Of a DNA stretch of 63,830 bases, positions 19,660 through 25,417 are shown piece by piece. The notes below the pieces were generated by a model that worked only from the letters and a program-made list of their open reading frames with translations, was not told the origin of the DNA and ran no database searches. Origin of the DNA: an uncultured Actinomycetes bacterium (GTDB lineage Bacteria; Actinomycetota; Actinomycetes; Nanopelagicales; Nanopelagicaceae); contig CAILSO010000053.1 in assembly GCA_903836945.1 (NCBI GenBank), positions 1-63,830 of the forward strand, written 5' to 3'. Each line of letters starts with the position of its first letter. Within the stretch, counting starts at the first letter, position 1. The position numbers and the translations under genes are program-made.

Positions 19660-20877
19660 TTACCTGACTATAAAACTCACGTGCTCTGGTTTTAATTCAT
19701 CTAATGAACGAGCACCGAGAAGTTTCATGGTGCGAGTCATTTGAGTGCGCAAAATTTCAAGCGAGCGATCTACACCCTCCTTACCCCCAGCCATTAGGCC
19801 GTACAGGTAAGCGCGACCGATCCAAGTGAAGTTTGCACCAGCGGCAATGGCAGCTACAACATCTGCACCATGCATAATTCCAGTATCAACATGGATCTCA
19901 TATTTCTTACCAAGGGCCTTGCGAACTTCTGGGACTAAGTGAAATGGAATTGGGGCCCGATCTAATTGCCGGCCACCATGGTTTGAAAGAGTTATGGCAT
20001 CCGCCCCAGCCTTAACGGCTAGCTTGGCATCTTCCACGTTTTGAATACCTTTAACAACCAGATTTCCATCCCATTGCTTTCGGATCCACTTTAGATCTTC
20101 AAAGGTAACTGTTGGATCGAACATTGAATCGAGAAGTTCGGCAACTGTGCCCTTCCATGAATCAAGAGATGCGAAGGTAAGTGGGTCGGTGGTTAAGAAA
20201 TTAATCCACCAAGCTGGTCTTGGAATAGCATTTAAAATCGTTTTTGAAGTTAGCGAAGGTGGAATTGTCATTCCATTTCTAACATCGCGAAGTCTGGCAC
20301 CAGCTACTGGTACGTCAACGGTCAATACCAAAGTATCGAAACCAGCTTTTTTAGCGCGATCGACTAGACCCATGCTGCGATCGCGATCTTTCCACATGTA
20401 TAACTGGAACCAATTTCTTCCATCAGGAGCAAATCGAGCAACATCTTCAATTGATCGAGTACCCATTGTCGAAAGCGTGAATGGAATTCCCGCATCGCGC
20501 GCTGCTTTTGAGCCAGCTTCTTCGCCTTCGGTTTGCATCATTCGAGTGAAACCTGTGGGAGCAATACCGATCGGCATCGCCATCGTTTTACCCAACATAT
20601 TTACCGAAAGATCAACCTTCGAGACATCGCGCAGAACACGTGGTTGAAATTCAATATCCTCAAATGCCTTGCGAGCTCGGGAGAGAGAGCTCTCTGAATC
20701 GGCGCCACCATCGGTGTAGTCAAATGGTGCTTTGGGGGTTCGACGTTTCGCAACATCTCGAAGATCATAAATAGTTAGAGCTCTGGTCAATCTACGCTTT
20801 TTGCTACTAAGAATTGGCTTACGAAATCGCAATAGGCCAGCCAGGGCTTTAAAGCCCGGAAACTTTCGCTTTGTCAT
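19660..20877 (-). CDS. FMN-dependent alpha-hydroxy-acid oxidase/dehydrogenase (LldD-like)
   Basis: Oxidises an L-2-hydroxyacid (lactate in LldD, others in relatives) to the 2-oxoacid using FMN. The 405 residues hold the family sites: [10 protein letters not shown] near residue 55, [31 protein letters not shown], the Lys in LVVKGI, the catalytic His and Arg in [12 protein letters not shown], and the FMN phosphate loop DTGIMHG / GRAYLYG. The basic N-terminus is longer than in simple oxidases. Mycofactocin-associated MftD belongs to the same family, but no mft genes are nearby. It is divergent from the split UxaA-like dehydratase with only 44 bases between the starts, so the two may share regulation. 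Confidence 0.87.
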
Positions 20878-20921: not shown

Positions 20922-21200
20922 ATGCGCTCCCTCTTGATCTTAAACACAATAGACAATATCGCCGTTGCATTGGCCGATTTAGAGTCCGGATCAATAATTG
21001 AACAAGATGGCTTGCAAATCGAAGTTCTAAATCAAATCCCACGTGGCCATAAGATCGCAACGAAACCCATTTCAAAAAATGAAGGTGTTATTAAATATGG
21101 CGAACGTATGGGCCATGCAACTTCTGATATTAAAGTTGGTGAGCACGTTCATACCCACAATGTCCTAGGTGATCGCCTCTCTGCGGAACAAGTTAAATGA
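20922..21200 (+). CDS. SAF-domain small subunit of UxaA-like dehydratase
   Basis: Ninety-two residues matching the N-terminal SAF domain of altronate/galactarate dehydratases (and the small subunit SuyA of sulfolactate lyase). Visible motifs are the start LILNTIDNIAVAL, QIPRGHKIAT, the KYGERMGHAT segment and the HVHTHN end, where the family has its conserved HxHN. I choose ATG 20922 over an in-frame ATG at 20871, which would overlap lldD on the other strand. The gene overlaps the next by four bases (ATGA). In most bacteria this domain is fused to the catalytic part or pairs with one large subunit; here two follow. Confidence 0.8.
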   Translation: MRSLLILNTIDNIAVALADLESGSIIEQDGLQIEVLNQIPRGHKIATKPISKNEGVIKYGERMGHATSDIKVGEHVHTHNVLGDRLSAEQVK

Positions 21201-22009
21201 AGCGCCAGGGATTTGACCGGGCCCTTCGTGGGGTAGGAATTCGCGACTATCAATTAATTCTCCCCTCAGTTGTCTGTTCGACTCGCATCGCAAGTCGAAT
21301 TGCGAATGAGGTCGGCTCCAAGACTTTTGCCCACCAACATGGGTGTGGAATTATCGGAAATGATGTTGAAGGTATATCTGATTTTTTCTGTGATTTAGCA
21401 AAGCATCCAAATGTCGGAACCGTACTAATTGTCGGCCTTGGCTGTGAAACTATTCAGGGAAATGAACTCGCGGCAAAGGTTAAGGAAAGTAATCCGACTA
21501 CTAGCTATTTAGTCATCCAGGAAAGCGGTGGCGTTGCCGGAACTTTTAACGATGGGATTACCGCGGCAAAACTCTTGAAATCTACCTATCCCCCACATCT
21601 AAAAAATCTGGATGAATTAGTGGTTGGTGTGGAATTTTCAAATTCAAATAGCGAGATTGAATCTCTAATCGCGGAGCTAAAGGCGAGCGGGATCAAATTT
21701 GAAATTGCAGATCAGAATAAGAATCCAGGTTTAAATTTTTCAGAGTTGATGCGTAGGGGCGTGCACCTAATAGTTTCATTCACTGAACCAAATCAACCAC
21801 CATCTGGCTTCCCGCTGATCCCGACCATAAATATTGCAAGTGATAGCGCGCTCCACAGCGCTCTGGCTAAAGAGTTTGATCTTCCTAACGGATCCACTTC
21901 ATCGGCAATCCTAAACTTCATTCTCGATGTTGCTGATGGCAAAGAGACAAAATCCGAGCTCTCCAAGGCAGGCGAAATTATTGCGCCCCGGGTGGTGCGA
22001 AGTGTCTAA
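21197..22009 (+). CDS. UxaA-family protein, paralogue keeping the N-terminal metal/active-site motifs
   Basis: A 270-residue relative of the large part of altronate/galactarate dehydratase. It keeps the first-half motifs: GVGIRDYQLILPSVVC, AHQHGCG near residue 46, KHPNVGTVLIVGLGCE near residue 70-85 and IQESGGVAGTFNDGI. Its second half is shortened and degenerate: the place of LECGGSD reads VEFSNSN, the TPGHD motif is missing, and FTxGRG reads SFTEPNQ. The protein still ends with an alignable DVADGKETKSEL segment, so it is a full-length but shrunken paralogue and not a fragment. It is coupled to the SAF gene before it and to the 386-residue paralogue after it (8-base overlap). Confidence 0.78.
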   Translation: MKRQGFDRALRGVGIRDYQLILPSVVCSTRIASRIANEVGSKTFAHQHGCGIIGNDVEGISDFFCDLAKHPNVGTVLIVGLGCETIQGNELAAKVKESNPTTSYLVIQESGGVAGTFNDGITAAKLLKSTYPPHLKNLDELVVGVEFSNSNSEIESLIAELKASGIKFEIADQNKNPGLNFSELMRRGVHLIVSFTEPNQPPSGFPLIPTINIASDSALHSALAKEFDLPNGSTSSAILNFILDVADGKETKSELSKAGEIIAPRVVRSV

Positions 22010-23162
22010 ATCACTGACTGGTTACCCACGAGCCGATGGAAGAGTGGGTTTTAGAAATCAAGTCTTAGTCATGCCTCTACATTCAGCTCTCTGTGCAACC
22101 GCTCGACGAATAAGTGAGGAGAGTGCAGCAGTTGCCATCACTCATGACTGGTCGGGTGAGATTGATGCTGACTTTGCGAGAATATTTAAAGTGATGACTG
22201 GCTTTGCTGCGAATCCAAATATCTTTGCCACAATCTTTCTTACCCTTGGTACTCCCGGTGAATTAGAAATTATTGATAAGAGTAAGTCAATCGGCCTTTC
22301 AAATTCGACCATTGTTAATGTAAGTGAAATTGGCTCTATGGAACTCTTATATGAGATTGCACTTAAAGAGGCCATTTCGTATTTAGCTTTGGCGGATCAA
22401 GTTGCCAGAGTCAGCGTTCCCTGGAGTTCTCTGCACTTAGGGCTTGAATGTGGCGGTTCCGATGCGCTCTCCGGCATTACAGCCAATCCCGCTCTTGGCG
22501 TGGCAAGTGACATGTTGGTTGAACTCGGAGCGGTTTCGGTATTGGGCGAGACCACAGAAATATTAGGCGCTGAACATTTATTAGCTGCACGCGCCTTAGA
22601 TCCAAACGTTGGTAAGCAAATTATCGAAACTGTTGCTAGGTATGAGAGGTCCATTAATTACGAAGGGATTGATATGCGCGGTGCCCAACCTTCACGAGGA
22701 AATATTGAAGGCGGATTAACAACGCTAGAAGAGAAATCCCTTGGTGCGGCAAAGAAGGCCGGAAGTGCACCATTTACTGGTGTTCTGGAATATGCAGATC
22801 CCGCTCCAAAACCCGGTTTATATTTTATGGACACTCCTGGTCATGACATCGAACAATTAACTGGATTTGCGGCTGCCGGAATAAATATTGTGGTCTTCAC
22901 ATCAGGTCGCGGCACCCCAACTGGGAGCGCAGTGGTTCCGACAATAAAGGTCTCTACAAATACTCAAATGGCGCTATCTATTCCGGATTTGATTGATTTA
23001 AATGCTGGAACCATCGCTGATGGCACTCAGACTTTACGCGAAGTCGGTGAATTAATTTTTAATGAAATTGTTGATGTTGCAAATGGAAAATTAACAGCAG
23101 CCGAACTTGGAAGACATCAGGAGTTTTCCCTGTCGCGCATGTATGGGACGCAGATTAATTAG
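22002..23162 (+). CDS. UxaA-family dehydratase, paralogue keeping the C-terminal motifs
   Basis: A 386-residue protein with the length and layout of the catalytic part of altronate/galactarate dehydratase or SuyB. The start GYPRADGRVGFRNQVLVMP and the second half (LECGGSDALSGITANPALG, ETTEILGAEHLL, MDTPGHDIEQLTG, FTSGRGTPTGS, DLNAGTI) are strongly conserved. In the first half the family Cys/His motifs are lost: the place of HxxGCG reads THDWSGE and that of GLGCE reads TLGTPGE. The 270-residue neighbour has exactly those motifs. Start taken as GTG 22002 inside the previous gene (8-base overlap); an in-frame ATG at 21927 would overlap by 83 bases. Substrate unknown. Its 3' end overlaps the convergent methyltransferase by 8 bases. 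Confidence 0.8.
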   Translation: MSKSLTGYPRADGRVGFRNQVLVMPLHSALCATARRISEESAAVAITHDWSGEIDADFARIFKVMTGFAANPNIFATIFLTLGTPGELEIIDKSKSIGLSNSTIVNVSEIGSMELLYEIALKEAISYLALADQVARVSVPWSSLHLGLECGGSDALSGITANPALGVASDMLVELGAVSVLGETTEILGAEHLLAARALDPNVGKQIIETVARYERSINYEGIDMRGAQPSRGNIEGGLTTLEEKSLGAAKKAGSAPFTGVLEYADPAPKPGLYFMDTPGHDIEQLTGFAAAGINIVVFTSGRGTPTGSAVVPTIKVSTNTQMALSIPDLIDLNAGTIADGTQTLREVGELIFNEIVDVANGKLTAAELGRHQEFSLSRMYGTQIN

Positions 23163-24339: not shown

Positions 24340-25407
24340 TTAAAGCGCACTTAGAATTCGTGCCGCCGCATCAGAAATTTGAAGATCGGTTGCGGTCAGA
24401 GCAATGCGAATATGCTTTGCGCCATCAGGGCCATAAAAACTTCCCGGAGTAGCAACAATTCCCAGATCGGCTAGCCAGCTAACTGAATCCCAATCCTTTT
24501 CATTTCTGGTGCACCAGATATATAAACCGGCATCGCTGTAATCAACCTTGAAACCCGCCGATTCAAGTGCTGGAACTAGTTGTTTACGCCGGTTGCGATA
24601 ACGCTCTGCCTGCTCTTGGACATGCTTCTCATCTTTTAAAGCCACAGTCATCGCGCGCTGAACTGGAAGGGGCACCATCATTCCGGCGTGCTTTCGCACC
24701 TCGCGGATTTCTGCGATAACTTGCGTATCGCCCACGATTAGCGCTGCTCGGTAGCCCGCCAAGTTAGAGCGCTTTGAGAGTGAATGCACTGCAAGTAAAT
24801 TCTTATTATTTCCAGCTGCCAATTTAAGAATTGAAAGTGGTTTCATATCTCCTGCTGGGAAATTTATATAACATTCATCGCTTACAAGTAAGGAATTCTT
24901 TTCTCGTGCATATTTAATACATGAAATTAATTCTGCTTCGGAGTGGATTCTTCCAGTTGGATTTGATGGCGAATTAATCCAGGCCATATCGCTATCGGGC
25001 CAGGTGGCTGCGTCAATCTCTACTTCTGTCGCTTTACTTCCATGAATCATGGATCCGACTAAATAAGTCGGGTATGCAACTTTAGGATAAAGAATATTTT
25101 TCTTCTCTAAGATTGACGGAAGCCAGGCAACTAATTCTTTAGACCCAATTGTTGGAAGAAAATCGAAGTCACCACTGGCGCCTAAAGTATTAGCCGCCCA
25201 ATTTTTAATCGCTTCTCGAAGTTCTGGCGTACCAATGGTTACTGGGTAACTCGGTGAATTAGCCGCCTCAATTAACGCTCTTTGAATAAATTCCGGTGTC
25301 TGATCTACTGGTGTTCCTTGCGAAAGATCGATCCCACCATTTGGATGCGATTTTGCCCGCGCCGAATATGGCGCCAGTGCATCCCATGGAAAATCTGGAA
25401 GCTTCAG
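24340..25407 (-). CDS. dapC: Succinyldiaminopimelate transaminase (DapC), apparent CTG start
   Basis: A PLP aminotransferase that makes N-succinyl-LL-2,6-diaminopimelate in lysine and cell-wall synthesis; dapD at 41732 supplies the preceding step. The 355 residues begin KLPDFPWDALAPY, as in actinobacterial DapC, and contain PTIGSKELVAWLP, the NSPSNPTGR pocket motif, DECY and the PLP lysine in HSLSKRSN. No ATG, GTG or TTG lies in frame between the stop at 25414-25416 and an internal ATG at 25050 that would remove a third of the enzyme. The reading frame is intact, so I infer a CTG start at 25407, ten bases after the ferredoxin stop, without a ribosome site. Confidence 0.83.
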   Translation of the reverse strand: MKLPDFPWDALAPYSARAKSHPNGGIDLSQGTPVDQTPEFIQRALIEAANSPSYPVTIGTPELREAIKNWAANTLGASGDFDFLPTIGSKELVAWLPSILEKKNILYPKVAYPTYLVGSMIHGSKATEVEIDAATWPDSDMAWINSPSNPTGRIHSEAELISCIKYAREKNSLLVSDECYINFPAGDMKPLSILKLAAGNNKNLLAVHSLSKRSNLAGYRAALIVGDTQVIAEIREVRKHAGMMVPLPVQRAMTVALKDEKHVQEQAERYRNRRKQLVPALESAGFKVDYSDAGLYIWCTRNEKDWDSVSWLADLGIVATPGSFYGPDGAKHIRIALTATDLQISDAAARILSAL

Positions 25408-25417
25408 TTGGTACTAC

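Follow-up and report, generated by a model that had tools for sequence, protein, structure and literature searches.

A UxaA/GarD-family gene trio in which two reciprocally degenerate paralogues may share the iron site of one sugar-acid dehydratase

Results and discussion

The window analysed here, a stretch of 63,830 nucleotides from an uncultured bacterium of the Nanopelagicaceae, carries three overlapping genes, A, B, and C, which quite probably code for a single iron-dependent sugar-acid dehydratase belonging to the UxaA/GarD family. Judged from the sequences, this enzyme would be a heteromer in which domain 2 of B and domain 3 of C make up one site for iron and substrate and a SAF-domain protein is the third subunit. 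The basis for this proposal is homology, reciprocal motif loss, conservation, co-occurrence, and overlapping gene order, and from these we infer the physical complex, an iron site sharing three cysteines of one chain and one of the other, a single site per B-C pair, and the dehydration of sugar acids.

Gene organization and domain content

Gene A (positions 20922 to 21200, + strand) encodes a SAF-domain subunit of 92 amino acids (Pfam SAF, PF08666, E 8.6e-10). It is followed by gene B (21197 to 22009, + strand), coding for a UxaA-type paralogue of 270 amino acids with an intact domain 2 and a shortened and degenerate domain 3, and by gene C (22002 to 23162, + strand), coding for a UxaA-type paralogue of 386 amino acids with an intact domain 3 and a degenerate domain 2. 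The three coupled reading frames are as the preliminary description gave them; A and B overlap by 4 bp, the stop of A lying over the start of B, and B and C by 8 bp. Gene C begins with GTG, a start that is backed by the similar length of the protein in relatives. The Pfam search that had been suggested for the three domains found SAF in A, GD_AH_second in full in B (E 2.8e-28, 99.1 bits, profile positions 1-129 of 136, cut-off 27.3), and GD_AH_C in full in C (E 2.4e-93, 312.4 bits). The C-terminal part of B matched GD_AH_C at 21.6 bits, below the cut-off of 26.8, and C matched only the first part of GD_AH_second at 50.7 bits, above the cut-off of 27.3.

When the family alignments of B and C were compared profile to profile with hhalign, the match spanned both proteins in full (probability 98.9%, E 1.9e-17), and thus B and C are paralogues, as had been claimed; this alignment and the GD_AH_second match also bear out the homology of the 270-residue protein to the large UxaA subunit. 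B is 116 residues shorter than C, and the residues that it lacks are from its domain-3 part. One correction concerns the cysteine close to the N-terminus of C (in ALC), which is not conserved in relatives; therefore all three domain-2 cysteines have been lost from C.

By sequence the trio belongs to the UxaA/GarD superfamily (COG2721; UxaA, GarD 6u7l, and the D-arabinonate dehydratase C785_RS13685), with which it has the same three domains, SAF, GD_AH_second, and GD_AH_C, and all of whose conserved motifs and four candidate iron cysteines are present when B and C are pooled. Ordinary enzymes of the superfamily carry all the motifs on one large polypeptide, whereas in the trio they are divided over two paralogues. 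A separate SAF gene also precedes many ordinary large subunits. All three proteins scored below the cut-off of 730.85 bits of the galactarate dehydratase equivalog model (NCBIfam TIGR03248), with 226.7 bits for C, 35.1 for A, and 24.3 for B. GarD 6u7l was the sole clear solved relative found by sequence, and AlphaFold models built from three-sequence alignments had a mean pLDDT of 36 for B and 43 for C, too low for them to be used.

Division of the candidate iron-site cysteines and other motifs between B and C

Iron ligands that the whole superfamily would share, sulfolactate sulfo-lyase excepted, have been proposed by Watanabe and colleagues (PMC6336799), namely Cys134, 173, 208, and 276 of D-arabinonate dehydratase. 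The corresponding columns were matched here by spacing: the published cysteines are 39/35/68 residues apart and those of four SAF-fused members of similar type 34-37/33-35/65-68. Sites were counted over 41 trios, 28 from the window's order, three from another class of the phylum, and ten from haloarchaea. In B, Cys27 (21275 to 21277, + strand) lies in the column of Cys134, Cys50 in HQHGC (21344 to 21346, + strand) in that of Cys173, and Cys83 in GLGCE (21443 to 21445, + strand) in that of Cys208, and each of these candidate ligands is present in 41/41 B-type and 0/41 C-type proteins. Cys150 of C, in ECGGSD (22449 to 22451, + strand), lies in the column of Cys276 and is present in 41/41 C-type proteins and in one of the 41 B-type proteins. 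Eight more domain-3 residues that are conserved in the family (S and D of ECGGSD, N of ANP, both E of ETTE, N of PGN, and E and K of EEKS) are found in all 41 C proteins and are absent or merely sporadic in B.

All four candidate cysteines stand on one polypeptide in 29 of 30 ordinary proteins, the exception being a SuyB-like protein of Haloarcula (L096). Neither B nor C has such a single-chain set, and the pair has it, with three cysteines on B and one on C. The list of motifs kept and lost by each paralogue in the preliminary description was correct and holds in the 28 triplets of the order, where B retains LPSVxC, HQxGC, and LGCE and C retains ECGGSD, TPGHD, and GRGTPTGS, essentially without exception. 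The lost motifs do fall at proposed metal positions, since they include the four cysteines put forward as iron ligands (PMC6336799), and the suggestion that each paralogue supplies part of the motif set is upheld at the level of sequence by the division of three and one cysteines over the 41 trios.

Conservation and co-occurrence in the order

Of 151 sampled genomes of the window's order 28 contain B, and in each of them the genes stand next to one another as A-B-C. A search with the C profile found C (>690 bits) in the identical 28 genomes; thus B and C are never apart in this sample. All other matches to the C profile were below 263 bits and included, in five loci that were read, a SAF protein with a SuyB-like protein. 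The B frames have no internal stops, and gene overlaps of 1-8 bp are maintained in most trio genomes. Identity among the 28 genomes is 44-58% for B and 62-74% for C. The 56 invariant columns of B are centred on QLILPxVxCST, HQxGC, HPN, and LGCET and the more than 140 of C on ECGGSD, RGAQPSRGNIEGGL, EEKSLGAAKKAG, DTPGHD, and GRGTPTGS, while A has the conserved blocks IpRGHK, IKYGERMGHA, and HvHxHN.

The two halves of the paralogues are conserved in opposite ways. In B the between-genome identity is 62% in domain 2 versus 47% in domain 3, with domain 2 higher in 377 of 378 pairs, whereas in C it is 52% in domain 2 versus 79% in domain 3, with domain 2 higher in none of the 378. The corresponding identities for domains 2 and 3 are 59/52 in haloarchaeal B, 64/81 in haloarchaeal C, and 48/55 in ordinary enzymes. 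The distances of B and C are correlated (r 0.92). The window's genome has only one SAF protein, one B, and one C. A single scan of genome contigs with B alone yielded one ordinary relative, and a search of viral contigs yielded none.

Two orphan B-like proteins were seen at L109:5020-6123 (G085, 367 aa) and L110:7533-8657 (G069, 374 aa); they match the B profile only, have no adjoining C or SAF gene, and are missing both motif sets.

Trios outside the order and their origin

The preliminary description had proposed to look for the same triplet in related genomes, and besides the 28 genomes of the order the pattern recurs in two further lineages, one of them archaeal. Three genomes from another class of the phylum (L053, L080, L081) have a divergent A-B-C trio, and haloarchaeal plasmids carry trios in the order C-SAF-B. 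Ten such haloarchaeal loci were read, and sixteen haloarchaeal records, each with two places, were among the tblastn matches listed. The haloarchaeal C-type proteins have HQMGT and ELGTE and retain ECGGSD, TPGYD, and GRGSTTG; the B-type proteins have HDHGC and GLGCE and have lost motifs of the ECGGSD, TPGYD, and GRGSTTG type. Reciprocal motif loss is thus seen in three lineages, and because both large haloarchaeal proteins have their full or almost their full length it is not due to truncation. The plasmid records name all parts of the trio merely 'UxaA family hydrolase'. On a Halomicrobium urmianum plasmid (L092:629-1474, 4509-7155) the trio is near genes for a 2,4-diketo-3-deoxy-L-rhamnonate hydrolase and a TRAP transporter, and another haloarchaeal trio (L078) is near a GH28 gene; these neighbours hint at deoxysugar-acid and uronate substrates in haloarchaea too.

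In the tree the B proteins of the order group with those of the other class in a single clade (100/95), and so do the C proteins of the two groups (100/99); therefore the bacterial trio has a single origin in this sample. Haloarchaeal and bacterial B types were joined weakly in a B-only tree (67/89). C-only trees placed haloarchaeal C elsewhere, and a joint C clade was not rejected (AU test p 0.19 and 0.20). Separate bacterial and haloarchaeal origins are suggested, though not demonstrated, by the differences in gene order and in the length of B.

Genome context and predicted substrate

UxaC was detected in 17 of the 151 genomes, all of them among the 28 with the trio (P 1.8e-15, with relatedness ignored). 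It was not detected in the other 11 trio genomes, and the trios therefore probably do not all act on one substrate. Eight loci, belonging to three genera, have UxaC and a mannitol-dehydrogenase-type reductase facing the trio, and in the window's genome these two genes are on another contig. The mannonate dehydratase UxuA had no match in the window's genome, which is 90% complete, and absences from it are therefore provisional. With an altronate dehydratase added to UxaC and the reductase the galacturonate route would be complete, and thus D-altronate in the hexuronate pathway is our best guess for the substrate in the window's genome.

Beside the trio, and divergent from it, is a gene for an LldD-like FMN-dependent alpha-hydroxyacid dehydrogenase (19660 to 20877, - strand; its relative in L033 matches FMN_dh with E 3.9e-127). 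The LldD-like gene adjoins the trio in eight loci, including L048 with its different context, and it is a pathway partner and no part of the enzyme. In L048 the trio also adjoins an SDR and an FAA hydrolase whose nearest model is 2,4-didehydro-3-deoxy-L-rhamnonate hydrolase, with a score below the cut-off of that model, and in L049 it adjoins an alpha-L-fucosidase, an aldo-keto reductase, and a DHDPS-type aldolase. The neighbours in these two loci fit the breakdown of L-fuconate to pyruvate and lactate, and the fucose-linked ones suggest L-fuconate as the substrate in some relatives. D-altronate, L-fuconate, and D-arabinonate have a common C2-C4 configuration and one enzyme of the family acts on all three, only weakly on the first two (PMC6336799). 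We predict that the trio acts on acids with the C2-C4 configuration of D-altronate.

Two other observations concern these genomes. Alpha-L-fucosidase (GH29) clusters, with five matches, are present in three small genomes of the same family that have no trio (L116, G054:C9; L117, G098:C14; and G148:C60). In the window an aminotransferase frame at 24340-25414 (- strand) is open for ~357 residues with no ATG, GTG, or TTG near the expected start, and its relative in L033 starts with ATG and has 345 residues; a non-standard start codon or a sequence error is possible.

Proposed mechanism and alternatives

Domain 2 of GarD is reportedly the dimer interface. We propose that an ordinary large subunit was duplicated to give B and C. 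B would have retained domain 2, with the three iron-site cysteines, GLGCE, and QxxGG, while its domain 3 decayed, and C would have retained domain 3, with ECGGSD and the PGN, EEKSLG, TPGxD, and GRG loops, while its domain 2 decayed. A pseudo-symmetric B-C pair would then stand in place of the homodimer, with the SAF protein as third subunit, and one composite site would work, that in which domain 2 of B faces domain 3 of C, the reciprocal site being dead. Its iron would be held by three cysteines of B and one of C, giving one active site per B-C pair. If the sites of the homodimer span chains, the loss of one site alone would yield reciprocal loss in full-length chains, as in haloarchaea; at a later step B would be free to shorten, as in the window.

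An alternative, which we consider unlikely, is that C with SAF is a complete catalytic unit as in SuyAB, the (2R)-sulfolactate sulfo-lyase, and that B is an accessory protein with a regulatory, iron-delivery, or stabilising role outside the active site. SuyAB, like the trio, has its SAF domain on a small subunit of its own next to a large subunit, and it needs no B; SuyB-like proteins of the order (L106, L107, L111-L113) have CGxSD and, like C, are without the domain-2 cysteines of HxxGC and GLGC, and sulfolactate sulfo-lyase is the exception to cysteine conservation according to PMC6336799. Since SuyB-type proteins lack the three cysteines within a working two-part sulfo-lyase family, their loss alone is no proof that C depends on B. 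However, C-type proteins retain the ECGGSD, TPGHD, and GRG loops and group with sugar-acid dehydratases, away from the SuyB-like L096, and B keeps exactly the cysteines that are missing from C, with no exception in 41 proteins, which an accessory role would not demand. The trio is not SuyAB, which has two subunits, no B-type partner, and a sulfonate gene context, whereas B has all three cysteines, C has dehydratase-type domain-3 motifs, and the SuyAB-like loci are separate from the trio. Even more improbable, in our estimate, is that B and C share one site which catalyses another reaction such as C-S lyase chemistry. That chemistry occurs within the family, in SuyAB, and the trio neighbourhoods differ among genomes, but B and C together hold all four iron-site cysteines, unlike SuyB, the contexts with UxaC and a fucosidase are in keeping with sugar acids, and in the loci read none of the genes next to the trio was recognised as a sulfonate gene. 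As for a duplicated gene in decay, with both copies shedding motifs as they turn into pseudogenes, B is shortened and motifs are lost from both copies, yet the frames are open in 28 genomes, 56 and more than 140 columns are invariant, co-occurrence is strict, and the same pattern is found in haloarchaea; we reject this explanation as having next to no chance of being right. Its recurrence in other bacteria and in haloarchaea makes the arrangement look like a genuine enzyme design, as yet without a name, and not like decaying genes.

The SuyB-like loci of the order (L106, L107, L111, L112, and L113, from G002, G023, G037, G018, and G045) consist of SAF and a 388-aa SuyB-like gene, with neighbours that by eye were kinase-, aldolase-, 2-hydroxyacid dehydrogenase-, Ldh-, and exporter-like; in these small genomes they probably serve to break down sulfolactate or sulfoquinovose. 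A match in the SuyB-like score class was present in about 44 of the 151 genomes.

A heteromeric L-fuconate dehydratase has been proposed in Paraburkholderia mimosarum (A19U_RS0100650/655; PMC6336799). It belongs to the family of the trio, for which L-fuconate is also suggested, but it has two genes, apparently with SAF split from the large subunit, and a complementary second large paralogue such as the trio has is not reported for it. The preliminary description knew of no three-part enzyme of this kind, and in the open-access papers searched we too met with no family member made of three parts, the haloarchaeal trio included, an absence that is weak evidence. The trio is thus new within the UxaA/GarD family as far as the literature searched shows.

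Significance

The composite enzyme that we favour would make the trio a natural complementation experiment, for the residues kept on B and on C tell which surfaces form the active site of the family, and it predicts that the active site of this poorly understood family of iron-dependent dehydratases can span two chains. On balance we expect that the trios represent a class of obligate heterotrimers, in bacteria and archaea, that arose from an iron dehydratase homomer and has one composite site with iron ligands divided three and one between reciprocally degenerate paralogues, and this class may have evolved independently in the window's phylum (A-B-C, short B) and in haloarchaea (C-A-B, full-length B). 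This would be a repeated case of subfunctionalisation, seen both in small bacterial genomes and in haloarchaea, by which a homomer became a heteromer that is apparently obligate. Since the parts are annotated only under a general hydrolase name, hexuronate and deoxysugar-acid catabolism is probably under-recognised in the organisms that carry the trio.
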